From contig CM067064.1 in NCBI GenBank assembly GCA_033980235.1, positions 32,953,497 to 33,017,496 of the forward strand: 64,000 nucleotides of DNA, written 5' to 3'. Shown one piece after another: positions 15,093-45,583 of the stretch. The notes beneath the pieces were generated by a model. It had not been told where the DNA came from, ran no database searches, and saw only the letters and a list, made by a program, of their open reading frames with translations. Made by a program: the position numbers and the translations under genes. The stretch's first letter is position 1, and each line of letters begins with the position of its first letter. Source of the stretch: Diadema setosum (lineage: Eukaryota > Echinodermata > Echinoidea > Diadematoida > Diadematidae).

Positions 15093-16792
15093 GGATTATA
15101 GTTAAACGTTACTTAACCTCTTAAAACCTCAAGTGAGCGCAGATGAGTGCCAATGCACGCGAAGTACAGTGTATCTCTGTGCACCATGACAGTGACATAA
15201 TTGAGTGTTGAGATGAGATAAAATGCGCTCTGGATTATAGTTATACAAACTGTACCACTTAACCTCTTAAAACCTCGAGTGAGCGCAGATGAGTGCCAAT
15301 GCACGCGACGTATCTCATTGAAACATGATATATCATAGTGACATCAATTGCAATGAGGTTGGACGCTCTCTGTGTGTAACTTCCAGCTCTATCGTCCAAA
15401 TCGATGACGAGGTTTAATACGCCGTGCACATGCGCACTCTTCGTTACTTTGGCTTCCTCTTTTCACATAAATGCGCTCTACTGCGCGTTATTCTGTAGGT
15501 AACTTCCAGCTCTCTCGAAACCTCAAGTGATGAGCGCAGATGAGTGCCATTGCACGCGAAACTGTACAGTGTATCTCTGTGCACCATGACAGTGACATAC
15601 ATTAGATATCATTGAGTGTTGAGATGAGGGGTTTATTGCGCTCTGGATTATAGTTATACGTCAATTTACATCTTAAAACCTCAAGTGAGCGCAGGTGAGT
15701 GCCTAAGCACGAGAGGTATCTAACTGCAATACAATAGTGACGTGATTAATGAATTTGCAATAAGGTTAGACGCTCTCTGCACGAAACCTTAACTTTTAAC
15801 TCCTAACTTTAAAAAAGCGCAGGTGAGTGGTATTGAGCGAGGTATGTCATTGCACCAGGACAGTGACATAGTATAGGATAAAACTGAGTACTCTCGTGGT
15901 GAGACGAGTTTTAATGCGCTCTGCATTTAAATTGTACTGAACTTCTACCTCTCTTGAAAACTCAAGTGAGCGCAAATTTGTGCCAATGCACGCGAGGTAT
16001 ATCTTTACACCATCACAGTGACATACATCCAATTTAGTGTTGAGATGAGGTTTAATGCGCTCTGGATTATAACTATACGTCACTTAACCTCTTAAAACCT
16101 CAAGTGAGCGCAGATGAGTGCCAATGCACGCGCCGTATTTCATTGCACCATCATAGTGACATTATCGTATATTACTGTATAATTTGCCAGGAGGTTGGAC
16201 GCACCCTGAGGGTAACTTCCAGCTCTATCGACCAAATCGATGACGAGGTTTAATACGCCCTCCGCATGCGCGCTAAGCGTTACTTTTGACCAGCTCTCTT
16301 TTCATTAATGCGCTCTGCACGTTTAATACTGTGGGTAACTTCCAGCTCTCTCGAAACTTCTAGTGAGCCCAGATGAGCGCCAATGCACGCGAAGTATCTC
16401 ATTTAATTGCATCATCAGTGTCTTAAAAGATAACACTGAGTACGCTGGTGGGGAGATAAATGCGCCTCTATTATTATGTATTACGTAACTTCAAACATCC
16501 TTGAGACCTCAAGTGAGCGCAGATGAATGCCAATGCACGTGAAGTACTACAGTATCTCATTGCACCATCACCGTGACATAGTGAGTACGGTAGTGGTTAG
16601 ATGAGGTTAAATGCGCTCTGCATTATTATCATGTATAACGTGACTTCAATCTCCTCGAAACCTCATGTGAGCGCTGATGAGTGCCAATCCACGCAAAGTG
16701 TCTCATTGCACCATCACAGTGGCATAAAAGATAAAACTGAGTACGCTAGTGGTGAGATGAGGTTATGATGCGCTCTCGTAAAACTCTCTTGA
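15093..16792. repeat. Satellite-like array, diverged monomers (part 2)
   Basis: Continuation of the array interrupted at 13210, with the same boxes (CCTCAAGTGAGCGCAGATGA and CCAATGCACGCG) at irregular spacing. Some monomers carry an extra block with CGATGACGAGGTTTAATACG and CATGCGCRCT. Confidence 0.9.
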
Positions 16793-17770
16793 GACCTCAA
16801 ATGAGCGCAGATGAGTGCCAATGCACGCGAAGTATCTCATTGCACCATCAAAGTGTGAGTACGCTAGTGGTGAGAGATGAGGTTAATGCACTCTCGTAAA
16901 ACTCTCTTGAGACCTCAAGTGAGCGCAGATGAGTGCCAATACACGCGAAGTATCTCATGGCACCATCATAGTATTATTAGAGTGTTTTTGAGTACGCTAG
17001 TGGTGAGATGAGGTTATGATGCGCTCTCGTAAAACTCTCTTGAGACCTCAAATGAGCGCAGATGAGTGCCAATGCACGCGAAGTATCTCATTGTACCATC
17101 AAAGTGTGAGAACGCTAGTGGTGAGAGATGAGGTTAATGCACTCTCGTAAAACTCTCTTGAGACCTCAAGTGAGCGCAGATGAGTGCCAATACACGCGAA
17201 GTATCTCATGGCACCATCATAGTATTATTAGAGTGTTTTTGAGTACGCTAGTGGTGAGATGAGGTTATGATGCGCTCTCGTCAAACTCTCTTGAGACCTC
17301 AAGTGAGCGCAAATGAGTGCCAATGCACGCGAAGTACCTCATTGTACCATCAAAGTGTGAGTACGCTAGTGGTGAGAGATGAGGTTAATGCGCTCTCGTA
17401 AAACTCTCTTGAGACCTAAAGTGAGCGCAGATGAGTGCCAATACACGACAAGTATCTCATGGCACCATCATAGTATTATTAGAGTGTTTTTGAGTACGCT
17501 AGTGGTGAGATGAGGTTATGATGCGCTCTCGTAAAACTCTCTTGAGACCTCAAGTGAGCGCAGATGAGTGCCAATGCACGCGAAGTATCTCATTGCACCA
17601 TCAAAGTGTGAGTACGCTAGTGGTGAGAGATGAGGTTAATGCGCTCTCGTAAAAATCTCTTGAGACCTCAAGTGAGCGCATGTGAGTGCCAATACACGCG
17701 AAGTATCTCATGGCACCATCATAGTATTATTAGAGTGTTTTTGAGTACGCTAGTGGTGAGATGAGGTTAG
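16793..17770 (+). repeat. Dimeric higher-order satellite (~251 bp HOR)
   Basis: GAGACCTCAARTGAGCGCA recurs with GACC at 16793, 16911, 17043, 17162, 17295, 17413, 17546 and 17664. The spacing alternates 118/132/119/133/118/133/118, so two monomer types form a dimer repeated nearly identically about four times. The longer type carries ATAGTATTATTAGAGTGTTT; the shorter lacks it. This homogenised block abuts the transposase promoter region. Confidence 0.92.
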
Positions 17771-17869: not shown

Positions 17870-18083
17870 ATGCAAATAAGGCTCCAGCGCTAGATCACCT
17901 AGATATGCAAGGCCAAAGGCGGGTTCTCAGCAGTCTTAAGCTCGTATGCAAATTAGAAGTCATGTCGGGGGAAAATATCCAATCACATACACAAAAAATC
18001 GCGCGAAATTCTGACATTGGTGGATCTTTTACGGACACTGAATCCCGAAGCTGCAGACGGAGCTCCCGGAGTTGGTATAAATA
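17870..18083 (+). promoter_or_regulatory. Histone-like promoter of the transposase gene
   Basis: Two octamers ATGCAAAT (17870-17877 and 17946-17953), a partial one (ATATGCAAG, 17903), a CCAAT box within ATCCAATCA (17979-17983) and a TATAAATA box (18076-18083) are visible. The box lies 47 nt upstream of the ATG, implying a very short 5' UTR. Octamer plus CCAAT plus TATA is the known arrangement of metazoan H2B-type histone promoters. That the boxes act this way here is inference, supported by the histone-type 3' end of the same transcription unit. Confidence 0.7.
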
Positions 18084-18129
18084 GCCTGAGTTTTCTGAGT
18101 TCTACGTTGTTGTCAACTAAGTTAACAAG

Positions 18130-19161
18130 ATGGGCCGCATGTCTATTGAGACACGCCAGAAGATTGTGCATTTGCACATCATCGAGAAGCTGGGACCATC
18201 AGCGATAGCCAGACGGCTGAAGAAAGAAGATATCCAGGTTAGAAGAGAATCCATTTCAAGGTTTCTTGGTCGATACAGGGAGACGAACGAAATCACGCCG
18301 AGGCCGAGACCACGTCCAGCTAGCAAACTGGACCAATACGCCGATCTAATCGACAAGGCTTATGAGAACGACAGTGAGCTGAGCGCGTCCAAGCTTCGGC
18401 GGATTTTGTTCGAGCTGCACGGCGTGAGCGTATCTACCTCCACGATCAAGAGCTACCGTCGTAATAAGCTTGGGTGGATCACTTGTCGACCGAAAGTGGT
18501 ACACATGGTTCGGGAAGTCAACCGTCAACTACGGGTGGCCCACTGTACGGCATTGATGAACACGTCCTTAACGCGGGTTGAAGAGCGATTCAACGACGTC
18601 ATATTCTCTGATGAATGCACCGCTCAGCTCTTCCGAAATGGCCGTGTTAGCTTCCGGAAGAGGGGTCACCCGAGAAAATTCGTCCAGCGCCCGAAACACC
18701 CCGGGAAAGTGCACGTGTGGGGTGCAATTTCTCGTCGTGGGGCATCGCAATTCTTGACGTTCACAGGCAACATGAACGCTGACTTTTATTGTGACCACAT
18801 CCTCGAGGGAACATTGAAGCCTTTCATCACAGCAAAATTCCCAGACAGCCACCGCTTCATGCAGGATAATGACCCGAAACATACGTCGAGGGCTGCGAGA
18901 TCCTGCATGGAGCGGAATGGCATCGTCTGGTGGAAAACGCCACCAGAATCCCCTGATCTAAATCCGATAGAAATGATGTGGGCCCACATGAAGTCGTGGG
19001 TCCAGAGCCGGGGGCCCACTTCTGTCCAGCAACTATCAGACTGCATCCACGAATACAGGCGAACCGAAGTATCCACCACACTTTGCAACAGGTTCATTAA
19101 TCACCTGGACAAGGTGGTGCCTGCAGTCATCGCAAACGAGGGCAGACAGACAGGATACTAA
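18130..19161 (+). CDS. Tc1/mariner-family (DD34E) transposase, intact, possibly domesticated
   Basis: Uninterrupted 343-codon frame starting at the first ATG after the TATA box (AACAAGATGG). Residues 1-50 form a helix-turn-helix (IVHLHIIEKLGPSAIARRLK). A second HTH-like region follows (about 85-118), with a basic RPRPRP tract at 58-63 resembling an AT-hook. The DDE catalytic triad is present: D161 in FSDECT, D246 in MQDNDPKHTS and E281 in PDLNPIEMMW, with 34 residues between the last two, as in Tc1 transposases (usual length about 340 aa). These enzymes cut and paste DNA at TA sites. I find no terminal inverted repeats flanking the ORF. Instead there is a histone-like promoter upstream, and three histone 3' stem-loops begin 17 nt after the TAA. 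That context suggests a captured or domesticated gene with S-phase-type expression. It could alternatively be a Tc1 lineage that carries such UTRs. Base composition is richer in GC than the neighbours. Confidence 0.93.
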   Translation: MGRMSIETRQKIVHLHIIEKLGPSAIARRLKKEDIQVRRESISRFLGRYRETNEITPRPRPRPASKLDQYADLIDKAYENDSELSASKLRRILFELHGVSVSTSTIKSYRRNKLGWITCRPKVVHMVREVNRQLRVAHCTALMNTSLTRVEERFNDVIFSDECTAQLFRNGRVSFRKRGHPRKFVQRPKHPGKVHVWGAISRRGASQFLTFTGNMNADFYCDHILEGTLKPFITAKFPDSHRFMQDNDPKHTSRAARSCMERNGIVWWKTPPESPDLNPIEMMWAHMKSWVQSRGPTSVQQLSDCIHEYRRTEVSTTLCNRFINHLDKVVPAVIANEGRQTGY

Positions 19162-19177
19162 CTGCTAAGACACAAAC

Positions 19178-19282
19178 GGCTCTTTTCAGAGCCCACAACC
19201 CAAACGGCTCTTTTCAGAGCCAAAACACCCCAACGGCTCTTTTCAGAGCCAACACATTACCAAAATTGAATTCTAAAGAAAC
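19178..19282 (+). terminator. Three tandem histone-mRNA 3' stem-loops plus HDE-like element
   Basis: The exact 16-mer GGCTCTTTTCAGAGCC occurs at 19178-19193, 19206-19221 and 19235-19250, each preceded by AAC or AAAC. It folds as a 6-bp stem with a TTTC-type loop, identical to the canonical stem-loop of replication-dependent histone mRNAs bound by SLBP. A purine-rich AAAGAAAC (19275-19282) lies 24 nt after the last loop, where the U7 snRNA target (histone downstream element) normally sits. Real histone genes carry one loop; three in tandem is unusual. No AATAAA lies between the stop codon and the loops. Confidence 0.88.
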
Positions 19283-19730
19283 TCACTCAATGGGTCTTAT
19301 CTAAGCAACTTAGCGTAAGTTAGAGCTATAACTTGTTAGAAGCCACTTTTCCAGTTCCTTGAAAGTTGATGTCTAACGTTAGAATCTAGCGTTAACAGTT
19401 AGATTATATTTTTCATAATGATAACATTGACTAAGAGCAGCATTTTTCGTGTGTAACATTAACAAAGTCCGTTCCGTCACAGTCGCGTCCATTGATGCGG
19501 AGATGTGATTTTTTTTTCTTTTTTTTTTGGGTCTATCTGAAGACGAAACGCGTTAACGTTTAACGTTATAGCGTTAACAGTTAACAAAGAATCTGGTTTC
19601 CTGGTTTCGTGCCTTCTGACATAGCGTTGCTTTCCGTCAAATCGTTGAAAAGACGTCTCTTGAAATGTCGCAACCTGGTAGAAAAGTGAAGATAGAAAAG
19701 AAACGAAAAATCTGAATTAAGATTTTTTTT
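19251..19730 (+). repeat. Duplicated 3'-flank block, copy 1
   Basis: Downstream flank of the transposase gene, paralogous to 21739-22515. Shared landmarks are TTCTAAAGAAACTCA, GCATTTTTCGTGTGTAAC, GCGTCCATTG followed by GCGGAGATGT, and CTGGTTTCCTGGTTTCGTGC (about 19591). The two copies flank exon 1 of the BEN-like gene. Confidence 0.88.
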
Positions 19731-20133
19731 TTAAAACTGAATATTAGTGACGAAGACACGTCAGTCAAAGGTCCAACATATTTATCGTGTTTATGTTCAC
19801 ACTTGTCTTAGTGTTAAGCGTTGTTAGGCTACACACGCTCCATCGTTTTAACAAAACTGTTACAGCCCTTTGTACAGGATTTCACTTTTTTCCCTTCATG
19901 TTTCACATGGCAACACGCATGCGCTCGATGATTTGTAGTTTTTGGCATGCCGGCAATTACAACAACAGGGGCCGGCCAGGGTCTCGTGATCTCAACTGCC
20001 GCGCTTTTAATAGCTTTTCTACCACATGTGCACGTACACACGCTGGAAAACCTCTAACGTTTAGAACGGTGTCTACGTACAGGCCCTAACCAGTCGATGT
20101 TCTAGATTCTAAGTTACATCCCCAAGGGCAAAA
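19731..20133 (+). promoter_or_regulatory. Upstream region of the BEN-like gene
   Basis: About 400 bp between the duplicated block and the ATG at 20134. No clear TATA box is placed at a useful distance. Sequence just before the ATG is CAAGGGCAAAAATGTC, with A at -3, an acceptable start context. The exact promoter is not resolvable from sequence alone. Confidence 0.3.
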
Positions 20134-20326
20134 ATGTCATCCAGGAGAAGCTCTAGGACAAGCTCAAAGAAATATCGTGAGTGCTTAGTATTTTTCGAGG
20201 AAAACTCGTCGGCAATTGTCCCCTCAAAACTTGTGAACGTCCCAGCCGTGAAGGATAATGTTCAGAAACATGTGCGAGTACAGTTTGACGGCGAAGAGGT
20301 TGAAGGAACTCTCATGTACGTGAGTG
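20134..20326 (+). CDS. BEN-like gene, exon 1 (N-terminal module)
   Basis: Starts at ATG 20134 and ends at a perfect donor G|GTAAGT (20327), phase 1. It encodes about 64 residues: a basic Ser/Arg/Lys start (MSSRRSSRTSSKK) and then a compact module with FFEENSSAIVPSKLV and VRVQFDGEEVEGTLMYVS. Short beta-rich N-terminal modules of this type occur in several invertebrate BEN-domain proteins (family knowledge). The open frame runs past the donor to 20391 only by chance. The leftover G plus AT from exon 2 makes GAT, so the join reads VS-DDHSELL. The exon lies between two copies of the histone stem-loop block. The gene model is mine, based on splice phase and residue character, with no transcript evidence. 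Confidence 0.72.
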
Positions 20327-20708
20327 GTAAGTACAAATTTCAGCTCATACAATCCCAACTTCGAAATGCAACTCTCCACTTTAGACCTTAATCTAGACTT
20401 AACTGTATTTTCTATCCCACTATTGTTATACTATTTGAAAGAAAGAAACTGGGTAGGGCCTACGCTAACAATAGTTAGTGGTGCCACTTTCGCGTAGACC
20501 GAGAATTTCAGGCTAAACATGCACTAACGAGTTATGTAGGCCTACTCAGAGTAAATCAGTAACGTTAAATTCAATCAAGGGTTACTAATACTAGATCTAG
20601 TATTAAAACGCGCACTAGTGTCTATGCTAGCGTTTATAGAGAGTAGAGCCGGCCGGCCAAGGTCGAGGGAGAGTGTGCCAAAACCATACCCATACGCGCA
20701 TGGGCATG

Positions 20709-20742
<34 letters not shown>

Positions 20743-21692
20743 ATGCCTCCGGCCGGCGCGGCGCGAACAGAACCGAGCGTCTACCGCCGGGTACGGGTGC
20801 GGTACGCGGCTAGGCTGTAGCGCATCCAATAGCGAGGACGTTGTCGATCTCGTGTGTTGCGATACAACCCCAAACGAGTTTAGACCCGAGGGTAACACTA
20901 GGTTTTCTAACAGTTAGAGTGATCCCAAGTCTGTTACACATTTATCGACCATGTACCATCGATTATCGCCGATGAAGAAGTTAATAAGATATGCCTAGCT
21001 ACTGGCGTACATAGTCAGGTTAGACTCTACTTCTAGATCTTGGCCTAGGCCTATCTAGATTCTACAATATGTAACTGGTTAGATCTAGGTATAGAGTATA
21101 GTCTAACGTTAGTATTCTCTGCATAGGCCTAGACAACCGTCTAAAAATAGCTGAAATACTATAGGGTCTAGGTTGGGCCTGCACTAACAATGTTAGACCT
21201 AACTTAAATTTACTCTTAACTCTGCATAGAATCTACACTCTATAGATCTAGTCTAGCTGTTAGACAAATTTTGGGTCGGTGTTTGTAGCACACATGTAGG
21301 TCTACTGATCTAACAAAAGGAACACTTTTTAGGGCTTTCTAATAGAATCTAGAATCTACTGTACAATATATTGTACTGAAACGTTACAGTAGACACTTCT
21401 AACGTTACGTTACCGTTAGTTGTGTGCGGCTACACATTTGCAAGTTTCCATCTCTCACTTTGACGTAGGCCTATCGTATCATAACTGTTTGTAAAATTGT
21501 AGTAGGCCTAGGCCTATTGTGTTGTTAGCCGATTACGTTAGGCCCATTACTACTGGAAACTAGGCCATAGAACACCTATGCCTACTTGAAAGTTGAACGA
21601 AGTCTCGAAGAACTTCTGCAAAAGAAACACTGCGCGTTCAGACTCCATCATAGCCAACAAAATAAAGAAAAAATTTCTGAAAGCCAACAAAG

Positions 21693-21772
21693 GGCTCTTT
21701 TTGGAGCCAACAAACCCACAACGGCTCTTTTGAGAGCCATCACATTCTACCAAATTTGAATTATAAAGAAAC
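21693..21772 (+). terminator. Second histone-type stem-loop pair (degenerate) plus HDE
   Basis: GGCTCTTTTTGGAGCC (21693-21708) and GGCTCTTTTGAGAGCC (21723-21738) are variant histone 3' stem-loops. AAAGAAAC follows at 21765-21772, 26 nt after the second loop, the same arrangement as downstream of the transposase. No intact ORF precedes them, so this is either a relic of a duplicated gene or a truncated duplication. It lies within intron 1 of the BEN-like gene on the same strand, where a functional 3' processing signal could truncate pre-mRNA. Confidence 0.75.
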
Positions 21773-22515
21773 TCATTTAGGGCCTAATAATTATTACTCT
21801 CTTTAAGGTCTTTGCATTATATTACGGGTCTCAGTAATACGTTCTTAGCATTTCTATTTCTAACGTTAGGCCTAGCGTCTGGTCTATATTAGGCCTATTT
21901 TTCTACTGTCTATCTGTATTTAACGATAACGTTGTCATTAGGCCTATCTCTAGAGCGGCTAGTGTCTAATTTATTGCTAATTGGTTATCTGTATCTGTAT
22001 GGTTTATTTAGTCAGCAAAATTTCCATGAACACACATCCACGCTAACTTGTCAAGGAGCACTTGGTGGACTGAGCGCGACCAAGAAAAAAAAATACGTAG
22101 GACCCCTAATGCTAGGCCCTAAATAATAAAATTAATTCAGATTTTGCTTGAACAGAGACAATGACGGTCAGGGTTCAGACAGAGTTCTGATTATGTTTCA
22201 TAACTTCATGATAATTATACGATGCTGATAGAGCAGGATTTTTCGTGTGTAACGAACTAAAAGAGTCTAGAGTCCATTCTGTTCGCAGCCATAGCGTCCA
22301 TTGCATTGGTGCGGAGATGTTATTTTTTTGGTTGTCCATTCAATACAGGTAAACGAGATTAGTGTAGACTGAAGACTGAATTAGAATAGAAAGATTTAAA
22401 ACCTTTGATATCTGGTTTCCTGGTTTCGTGCCTTCTAGTGTTGCTTTCCGTCAAATCGTTGTAAAGACGTCTCTTGAAATTTCGCAACCTGTAGTTAAGA
22501 TAGAAAACAAAGGAA
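21739..22515 (+). repeat. Duplicated 3'-flank block, copy 2
   Basis: Paralogue of 19251-19730 in direct orientation, about 2.5 kb away, expanded by indels and TAGGCCTA-rich insertions. Landmark CTGGTTTCCTGGTTTCGTGC recurs at about 22412, followed by GCTTTCCGTCAAATCGTTG. Homology ends before the T-run/G-run at 22533. Confidence 0.88.
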
Positions 22516-22532
22516 AAGTCAAAACTTAGGTG

Positions 22533-22554
22533 TTTTTTTTTTTTTTGGGGGGGG
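22533..22554. repeat. Poly-T/poly-G junction
   Basis: T(14)G(8) direct junction, one of seven such T-run/G-run or C-run/A-run junctions in this window. Confidence 0.9.
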
Positions 22555-36108: not shown

Positions 36109-36876
36109 GTATCATCTAAATAACGCCCCTCTTGAATCTGTTGAATCCGTGAATTACTTTGGTGTAACCATCACTTCTGATTTGAAGTGGACCCAACACA
36201 TCAACAATACTGTCAATAAAGCCAATAACGTGCTTGCATTTCTAAAACGCAATCTTCGCATAAAATCTTCTGATGTTAAAGCCACAACTTACAAAACGTT
36301 GGTTCGACCAATTGTTGAGTATGCTTCCACAGTTTGGGACCCATCTACCAAGAACCTAATCCACCAAGTGGAAATGGTCCAGAGAAGAGCTGCGCGATTC
36401 ACTTTAAATCGCTACCATAACACCTCGAGTGTCACCAAAATGCTACAAGAACTTAATTGGACCACTCTGGAACAGCGCAGAGAAAATGACAAGCTAATTA
36501 TGATGTACAAAATACACAATAATCTCACTCCTCTTTCAGCACAGGACTATATCATCAAACAGGCTACTCAGTTAACGAGAGCCTCGCAACCACACTCCTA
36601 TCAGGTACCATATTCGAGAACTGAATCGCATCGCCATTCGTTCTTCCCAAGAACTGTAAGGAACTGGAATTCCCTGTCGTCAGAAATTGTTTCAGCGCCA
36701 TCTGTTGGATCATTTCGAAACCGTCTAACGGTTGATCACAGTGGCTAGTATTTTCGTCAAATTTTGTATGTGCTTGTAAATATCTGTAAATAAATTGTAT
36801 TATAATGTAAATAGCACCAGTCTGCAAGAATCTTCAGTCTATTGAAGGAGGCAGACTTAATCAGAAGAAGAAGAAG
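36109..36876 (+). pseudogene. 5'-truncated non-LTR retrotransposon (RT C-terminus)
   Basis: An open frame runs to 36748. The LINE-derived part encodes about 210 residues of the region after the reverse-transcriptase palm: NYFGVTITSDLKWTQHI, LVRPIVEYASTVWDP, VQRRAARFTLNRY, and the tail SFFPRTVRNWNSLSSEIV. This order is typical of CR1/jockey-type LINE polymerases. The catalytic palm is missing (5' truncation). Upstream codons belong to the host element's end. After the stop comes a 3' UTR with AATAAA (36790) and an (AGA)n tail. The insertion is flanked by AAAG on both sides, splitting the host sequence CTGAAAAGCCTTCG seen intact elsewhere. Not expected to make a functional enzyme. Confidence 0.85.
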
Positions 36877-44269: not shown

Positions 44270-45583
44270 GCGAAGGTTCTTGCAAGAACCCAACTTAAAG
44301 AAAGTGACGATGACAGCAACGACAGCGAGTGGCTGGAGTGGCTTGGTGTGGGTATGGGAGGTGAGGGAGAGGAGGGAGAGGGGAAGGACGTAGTTGTGGA
44401 GGTAGAGGAGGGTAGTGTGGGAGAGGGGGAGGGGGACGTGGTTGCGGAGGGAGAGGAGGGTAGTATGGGAGAGGGGGAGGGGGACATGGTTGTGGAGGTA
44501 GAGGAGGGTAGTGTGGGAGAGGGGGAGGGGGACGTGGTTGCGGAGGGAGAGGAGGGTAGTGTGGGAGAGGGGGAGGGGGACATGATTGTGGAGGTAGAGG
44601 AGGGTAGTGTGGGAGAGGGGGAGGGGGACGTGGTTGCGGAGGGAGAGGAGGGTAGTGTGGGAGAGGGGGAGGGGGACATGGTTGTGGAGGTAGAGGAGGG
44701 TAGTGTGGGAGAGGGGGAGGGGGACGTGGTTGCGGAGGGAGAGGAGGGTAGTATGGGAGAGGGGGAGGGGGGCGTGGTTGCGGATGGAGAGGAGGGTAGT
44801 GTGGGAGAGGGGGAGGGGGACATGGTTGTGGAGGGAGAGGAGGGTAGTTTGGGAGAGGGGGAGGGGGGCGTGGTTGCGGAGGGAGAGGGGGACGTGGTTG
44901 CAGATGGAGAGGAGGGTAGTGTGGGAGAGGGGGAGGGGGACATGGTTGTGGAGGGAGAGGAGGGTAGTTTGGGAGAGGGGGAGGGGGACATGGTTGTGGA
45001 GGGAGAGGAGGGTAGTTTGGGAGAGGGAGAGGAGTCTAGTGTGGGAGAAGGAGAGGGGGATGGTGATGGGGGGGTTGCTGCAGGGAGAGTGCGGGATGGG
45101 GGCGATGTTGGGGGGAGGGAGCCGACACTTAGGGACATTTGGGGGAAAATTAAAGAGATAGAAAGGATGCTCATCGACCTGAGAACAAGATTTGACATGT
45201 CACAGCCACAGCCACAGCCACAGCCACAGCCACAGCCACAGCCACAGCCACAGCAGGAAGGGGAAAGGGATGGTCTGTCTGAGCACGAACTATTACTAAT
45301 GAAAGCTCAATCAAATTCCGGGCCCAATTTCGCCAAGAAATTGATGACCGCCCTCGTGCCCCGCGATATTTTGGCACGCTCCAATTGCACGGGGGCGCGG
45401 GTCCATAATTCGAGGAGGGGGGACGTGCAGGCAATTGATGCACATACAATGGAGTACGTCGTGCACACGACGTACAGACTATATTCTATCGAGGCGTCGG
45501 ACAGAAGGAAAATGTATTCGAAGATTGTAAACGCCATTAACATGCACTGCCGGCGCCTTCACGCTATTGGGCACAACGCGTGA
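44270..45583 (+). CDS. BEN-like gene, terminal exon: acidic repeat and BEN-like domain
   Basis: 1314 nt from acceptor TTTATTTACAG|GCG (phase 0) to TGA; residues 156-592 of the modelled protein. It starts AKVLARTQLKESDDDSNDSE. About 13-14 copies follow of a 16-residue, 48-nt acidic/glycine unit (EVEEGSVGEGEGDVVA alternating with EGEEGSMGEGEGDMVV), spanning about 44398-45060. Next come a short helical segment (IWGKIKEIERMLIDLRTRF), a QP repeat (45199-45255) and a C-terminal domain of about 90 residues (45311-45580). That domain contains FAKKLMTALVPRDILARSN and CTG, then IVNAINMHCR, matching the pattern of BEN domains (DNA/protein-binding modules of transcriptional repressors). The ATG at 44255 lies before the acceptor and is probably intronic. 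The antisense SPSP-rich ORF is a shadow. The BEN assignment is by pattern only. Confidence 0.75.
   Translation, partial: AKVLARTQLKESDDDSNDSEWLEWLGVGMGGEGEEGEGKDVVVEVEEGSVGEGEGDVVAEGEEGSMGEGEGDMVVEVEEGSVGEGEGDVVAEGEEGSVGEGEGDMIVEVEEGSVGEGEGDVVAEGEEGSVGEGEGDMVVEVEEGSVGEGEGDVVAEGEEGSMGEGEGGVVADGEEGSVGEGEGDMVVEGEEGSLGEGEGGVVAEGEGDVVADGEEGSVGEGEGDMVVEGEEGSLGEGEGDMVVEGEEGSLGEGEESSVGEGEGDGDGGVAAGRVRDGGDVGGREPTLRDIWGKIKEIERMLIDLRTRFDMSQPQPQPQPQPQPQPQPQQEGERDGLSEHELLLMKAQSNSGPNFAKKLMTALVPRDILARSNCTGARVHNSRRGDVQAIDAHTMEYVVHTTYRLYSIEASDRRKMYSKIVNAINMHCRRLHAIGHNA

Follow-up and report, generated by a model that had tools for sequence, protein, structure and literature searches.

Introduction

Processing by SLBP and U7, and timing of expression to S phase, are established for the histone-type mRNA 3′ end, whose stem-loop (SL) signal is otherwise known from histone genes. 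Two further systems lie close to the gene analyzed here: the Tc1-like transposases (IS630-Tc1-mariner, DD34E; Sleeping Beauty, Mos1) and SETMAR/Metnase, a domesticated mariner transposase that is retained without its own transposon. We know of no histone-type mRNA end for SETMAR.

We analyzed a window of 64,000 nucleotides from the sea urchin Diadema setosum (C6:32953497-33017496; C-labels denote contigs of the assembly, which has 885,718,524 bases in 96 contigs). It contains a Tc1-like transposase gene that is followed by three histone SLs. A preliminary description of this DNA held that no transposase of this architecture had been described. Our literature searches, which covered titles and the starts of abstracts, likewise gave none: no paper was found there that describes a transposase, a transposon or a non-histone gene with a histone stem-loop end.

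The protein encoded in the window resembles Tc1-like transposases in fold, catalytic triad and length, whereas the gene differs from theirs in having histone-type promoter elements and a histone-type 3′ end, and no terminal inverted repeats (TIRs) were found around it. With SETMAR it has in common a structural fold match and, apparently, the status of a retained transposase, but no fusion partner is seen. Like the histone genes of the same genome, the window gene is intronless and has octamers, an SL that matches at 16 of 16 positions and a short 3′ UTR, and an HDE at +10 is found among its transposase relatives as well; unlike the histone genes, it encodes a transposase and has three SLs and a degenerate HDE. 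An SL shortly past the stop codon, no introns and no nearby poly(A) signal are all found in the window gene, but an HDE about 10 nt behind the SL is not.

Results

A Tc1-like transposase gene with histone-type signals

The features of the window are listed by window coordinates.

16660 to 17769, no strand: 251-bp tandem satellite that adjoins the gene upstream (TRF; 4.4 copies, 95% matches).
17870 to 17877, forward strand: octamer ATGCAAAT at -260 (motif).
17946 to 17953, forward strand: octamer ATGCAAAT at -184; TATGCAAATTAG is also present in the C13 paralogue (alignment).
17979 to 17983, forward strand: CCAAT box at -151, in the block TATCCARTCACAT aligned with C13 (alignment).
18074 to 18086, forward strand: TATA box GGTATAAATAGCC at -54, identical in C13 at -56 (alignment).
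18130 to 19161, forward strand: Tc1-like DD34E transposase ORF, 343 aa (ORF, Pfam, triad, fold).
19178 to 19193, forward strand: histone SL 1, exact (motif search).
19206 to 19221, forward strand: histone SL 2, exact (motif search).
19235 to 19250, forward strand: histone SL 3, exact (motif search; with flank, 33.5 bits to RF00032).
19261 to 19269, forward strand: canonical HDE position (+10), degenerate, CAAAATTGA (consensus score).
19275 to 19282, forward strand: AAAGAAAC, earlier proposed as HDE, starting 25 nt past the last SL.
20134 to 20328, forward strand: probable first coding exon of a neighboring gene, ending before GTAAGT (comparison across loci).
21693 to 21738, forward strand: two further SLs, an ORF-less remnant of a second 3′-end copy (motif search, Rfam).
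44354 to 45583, forward strand: ORF with a BEN-domain match at its end, under the Pfam cut-off (Pfam).

An intact Tc1/mariner DD34E ORF had been claimed, and the evidence bears this out. The frame is intronless and open over all 343 codons, with 0 stops, and contains a DDE_3 match (Pfam, E 2.2e-20) and the catalytic triad D161/D246/E281, in which 34 residues separate the second D from the E. All three residues are invariant in an alignment of the window protein and nine relatives. Near the N-terminus, an HTH_32 match reaches 25.7 bits, under the Pfam cut-off of 33.7, and structure prediction places helices at residues 6-52 and 68-114. The predicted fold (pLDDT 84, pTM 0.61) finds Sleeping Beauty and Mos1 as its best solved-structure matches, with the Sleeping Beauty catalytic domain at the top. 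The best full-length relatives from outside are about 43-46% identical.

The upstream elements of the preliminary description (octamers, CCAAT and TATA) lie at the positions listed, with TATAAATA at -54 of the ORF, and are partly common to C13. The two loci have TATGCAAATTAG, TATCCARTCACAT and GGTATAAATAGCC in common at similar distances (octamer at -184 and -173), and C13 reads CCAGT where the window has CCAAT. These blocks are kept even though the synonymous sites of the ORF are saturated between window and C13 (pS 0.81). There is no TATAAA box at C18, which has only a reverse octamer, at -294, and the copies of the C14 array and at C14:25.27M are without the window/C13 promoter, so promoter conservation extends to two loci only.

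Downstream, the 16-nt histone SL GGCTCTTTTCAGAGCC occurs exactly at 19178, 19206 and 19235, the first copy starting 17 nt past the stop codon, which is the arrangement originally reported. Near copies at 21693 (2 mismatches) and 21723 (1 mismatch) bring the SL matches with at most 3 mismatches in the window to 5, versus 0.32 expected from shuffles. Against RF00032, for which the Rfam cut-off is 34 bits, SL 3 with its flank scores 33.5 bits, and the second 3′-end copy has a match of 34.8 bits at 21718-21764. This second copy, at 21640-22540, comprises the 3′ end and parts of the sequence behind it, without the ORF. None of 200 shuffles folds as well as the window 3′ UTR (z -5.1). In the minimum-energy structure predicted for this UTR, SL 1 pairs with SL 2, and SL 3 alone forms its own hairpin. 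Because the three SLs are identical, no covariation is visible among them. From the stop codon to the next exon (19161-20137), AATAAA and ATTAAA are absent.

The purine-rich AAAGAAAC that had been put forward as the HDE was not supported in this role. It sits at +25, whereas of the 11 histone genes read in this genome 9 have a CAAGAAAGA-like HDE at +10 (one has it at 7 and another at 11), and a AAAGAAAC-like sequence in close relatives is likewise at a non-canonical distance. At the canonical site of the window, CAAAATTGA has 6/9 matches to CAAGAAAGA, a score equaled or exceeded by 1225 of 2000 shuffles.

SL-bearing relatives in the genome

The listed genome matches to the window transposase number 121. 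Flanks were obtained for the best 30 of these 121, for 8 more distant matches and for 15 further pieces; three of the pieces matched up to residue 343 and were therefore counted, and the other 12 (two without any match), which were SL-free, were left out of the counts. The SL is carried by 9 of the 12 relatives (window included) whose C-terminal end was read: the window, C13, the C14 array, C14:25.27M, the C16 array, C18:22.81M, C19, C6:11.72M and C6:7.33M. It is absent at C10, C18:22.80M and C8:7.78M, the other 3 of the 12, and in all 8 more distant Tc1 relatives (27-37% identical). The groups of 12 and 8 were split by listed identity (about 38% or more versus 37% or less), and over the C-terminal part by itself C8:7.78M and C6:7.33M show no more than 30-31% identity. 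A loose SL rule gave 0 matches in 64 control pieces of 900 bp each from elsewhere in the window.

An element of the CAAGAAAGA type (8-9/9) lies exactly at +10 at C18:22.81M, C6:11.72M, C19, C13 and C14:25.27M. The decayed relative at C6:7.33M has the SL GGTTCTTTTCAGGACC, which is fully paired with changes on both stem sides, and CAAGAAAGA with 9/9 matches at +10 behind it. The best stems of the C16 array have one mismatch, and most array copies at C14, C16 and C6:11.72M have SLs that are damaged or cut. The last of these arrays, C6:11722864-11743466, is a tandem series of transposase units, most of them cut inside the SL, with the full SL and HDE in the last unit only. When 10 Tc1-like loci were compared with RF00032, 7 matched at E 0.01 and 3 had no match; C19 (36.9 bits) and C6:11.72M (34.4 bits) reached the cut-off and five matched below it (C18, 33.8 bits), and an H2A gene of the same genome scored 35.4 bits.

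The trees took in six of the SL carriers, which form one clade both with 70 outside and 2 distant rows (support 98/96) and with 68 outside rows (support 88/95). A single acquisition is thus the simplest history. On these comparisons, the histone-type end is a property of the transposase lineage, beyond the single window gene.

Genome-wide census of the stem-loop

Exact GGCTCTTTTCAGAGCC occurs in 109 copies in 886 Mb, and the reversed control in 0. Of these places, 100 were listed, and 68 of the 100 make up a tandem array on C7, where the two places read lie behind H4 and H3 ORFs. Each of the other 32 listed places was read: histone ORFs, recognized by eye, precede 9 of them, and non-histone ORFs or remnants precede 23, namely 10 Tc1-like (3 in the window, 1 at C13 and 6 at C14), 5 of family F1, 6 of family F2, 1 of family F4 and 1 pogo-like. 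One of the nine unlisted places, on C19, is behind a Tc1-like transposase. An octamer was present in 3 of 5 H2A/H2B genes read. The U7 snRNA model RF00066 (Rfam) found nothing here and nothing in control genomes either, and is therefore uninformative.

Other transposon-related families

A pogo/Tigger-like transposon at C8:3.68M (L072:688-4756) has a 380-aa DDE_1 ORF (E 5.8e-42), matching 26-27-bp ends (TIRs) and TA flanks. Two tandem SLs follow the stop codon, at 52 nt and 74 nt, GGCCCTTTTCAGGGCC with a compensated stem beside a standard SL, and the HDE is weak. As in the window gene, a transposase ORF is followed by tandem SLs and a weak HDE; unlike it, this element belongs to another transposase family (DDE_1) and has TIRs and TA flanks. 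The genes with tandem SLs (window subclade and pogo-like) are those without a good HDE.

Over the 447-706 bp compared, the five F1 copies have an identity of at least 99.1%. At C16 the ORF is complete, with 563 aa, and appears DDE-like by eye, with no Pfam family above the cut-off; the copy that was scored has the HDE at +10, and one of the five exact F1 SLs stands behind a short open frame only. F1 (L058, L059, L060, L063, L065, L070; C12, C13, C16) is dispersed and has a canonical SL and HDE. Its copies on C13 and C12 are cut at different 5′ points, and those on C13 and C16 have 3.9 kb behind the SL in common. Family F2 (L005, L052, L053, L061, L062, L066; C5, C7, C13, C16) combines an intronless ORF, 233 aa in L005 and without a Pfam family, with the SL; the HDE is at +10 in 3 of 5 copies scored, and the frame is broken near the SL in 3 of 6. 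F4 (L073:1115-2089, reverse strand; C16:311 kb) is an intronless 324-aa ORF with a canonical SL and HDE, no Pfam family above the cut-off and, in the scored copy, the HDE at +10. A BEN domain in F2 and F4 appeared likely by eye and was not supported by Pfam.

Several transposon-related families here therefore seem to use histone-type ends. Transposon-related genes have probably gained the histone end more than once, unless one gene end spread by recombination. That the feature is common to relatives and to unrelated genes makes the signal more credible and the single gene less singular. We suggest, tentatively and with some doubt, that unrelated families (Tc1-like, pogo-like and F1) repeatedly acquired histone ends and so make non-polyadenylated S-phase transposase mRNA, mostly in cleavage embryos.

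Selection, neighbors and mobility

The dN/dS comparison proposed earlier as a check gave an omega of 0.07 at a dS of 1.26 (Nei-Gojobori count) between the window and its nearest paralogue, C14:8.852M, and these counts indicate that the window ORF is under purifying selection.

TIRs had been reported missing from the flanks, and a search of 6 kb to each side of the window ORF gave no TIR-like pair (best inverted matches 13 and 21 nt, E 0.44). None were found around 11 copies either (0.3-6 kb flank per side), nor when the downstream flanks of C18 and C19 were extended; mobile elements with TIRs enclosing the same ORF and loops, which would have spoken against the original proposal, were thus not seen around these copies. 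One long inverted match, at C6:11.74M, was read as an inverted array unit. Short inverted repeats (17-20 nt, E 0.007-0.03) do flank each of two distant Tc1 relatives, L039 and L040, which are 98% alike and SL-free.

In the window, the probable neighbor exon follows the transposase at about 0.97 kb; at C13, C14:25.27M and C16 a similar exon follows at 0.78-0.84 kb (at C16 with a stop codon). The C13 segment and its duplicate at C14:25.27M (91.7% identity) count as one case, so that only two of these further cases are independent. The segment common to this pair is 2.5 kb long and has an A-run immediately beyond its 5′ end, but no poly(A) at the 3′ end, for which reason we do not favor an origin of the pair by retroposition. 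At C18, C19 and C6:11.72M, a search of about 5-7 kb downstream did not recover the exon; the one weak match, at C19, covers 21 residues (E 0.1). We therefore rejected the exon as a trait of the whole lineage, and the link to the neighbor holds for the window subclade only.

Further along the window, the ORF at 44354-45583 is possibly the last exon of the neighboring gene, and 20134-45583 as a whole may be a BEN-domain gene that starts with the exon immediately downstream of the transposase gene. In the C14 array, BEN-like exons related to 44354-45583 alternate with transposase copies. A 124-aa ORF at 36374-36748 resembles, by eye, the end of a LINE reverse transcriptase, with no Pfam match.

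The common neighbor exon (C13 with its duplicate, and C16) and the missing TIRs lead us to think that the window copy probably does not move. The simplest reading is that the window subclade duplicated together with its neighbor, not by transposition, and that the ORF is under selection in the window. To us the gene appears to be retained, not mobile. The preliminary description had proposed a captured or domesticated transposase; purifying selection, the failure to find TIRs, the octamer/TATA promoter partly common to C13 and the histone-type 3′ end agree with a transposase gene that was captured or retained.

There are three other explanations to weigh. The first, a mobile Tc1 family that uses the histone-type end as an expression signal of its own and whose window TIRs are lost or remote, we consider unlikely. 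S-phase expression would then serve copy gain by transposition during replication. The pogo-like transposon of the same genome, with its TIRs, TA flanks and two SLs, speaks for it, as does the near identity of the five F1 copies (at least 99.1% over 447-706 bp). Tc1-like copies on several chromosomes also fit, as do C18, C19 and C6:11.72M, where the missing neighbor exon means that the gene changed place earlier. However, TIRs are missing around all 11 copies and in the longer flanks at C18 and C19, the window unit has its neighbor exon in common with C13 and C16, the nearest copy is at dS 1.26, and the relatives that do have short inverted repeats (L039/L040) have no SL.

The second possibility, a fossil whose SLs worked in an ancestor, is more improbable still. 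The window gene would now be untranscribed or polyadenylated, with its ORF intact by chance or slow decay. The degenerate HDE of the window speaks for it, and among the full-length matches listed only the window and C6:11736778-11737791 are stop-free. Yet the window branch has 31 synonymous and 7 non-synonymous changes, and 7 non-synonymous of 38 has p ~4e-13 if 75% non-synonymous are expected; all 48 SL bases are intact, against a 61% difference from the nearest paralogue at synonymous sites, and promoter blocks are common to the window and C13. The third, that the hairpins are DNA sites such as transposase-binding sites or recombination hot spots and not RNA signals, recalls the likeness of the tandem triplication to subterminal repeats and the C6:11.72M array units that join inside the SL, but is very hard to reconcile with an exact histone loop and stem that, in the copies read, come directly after the ORF and in its orientation, and with an HDE at histone spacing in relatives.

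Discussion

We think it somewhat probable that the window holds a Tc1-like gene kept at one place, a member of an old lineage that took on a replication-dependent histone expression module. From what is established for the SL signal, we infer that the window gene is expressed in S phase as a non-polyadenylated mRNA. Pol II would make an intronless transcript, and its 3′ end would be cut behind the SL by SLBP and the U7 snRNP, leaving the mRNA without poly(A). Synthesis, translation and decay of the mRNA would all follow S phase and would be strongest in cleavage embryos, so that the transposase would be present mainly while DNA is copied. In the window subclade the HDE appears to have weakened, and the presence of several SLs may make up for this by bringing in more SLBP. 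As for the protein, its own mobility may be gone, and it could serve as a chromatin protein or work at other sites.

The rule by which the SL 3′ signal belongs to histone genes would be broken by a transposase lineage, and additional transposon-related genes, that have this end. If this reading is true, there is a class of non-histone stem-loop mRNAs, and such mRNAs would escape poly(A)-selected RNA-seq. The effect of a histone 3′ end alone on a foreign ORF would have a natural test in these genes. The sequences suggest that transposase production has repeatedly been tied to DNA replication. Transposition would in this way be timed to replication, when an element that leaves an already copied site gains a copy, and these genes would offer a natural test of whether transposons gain by acting during replication.
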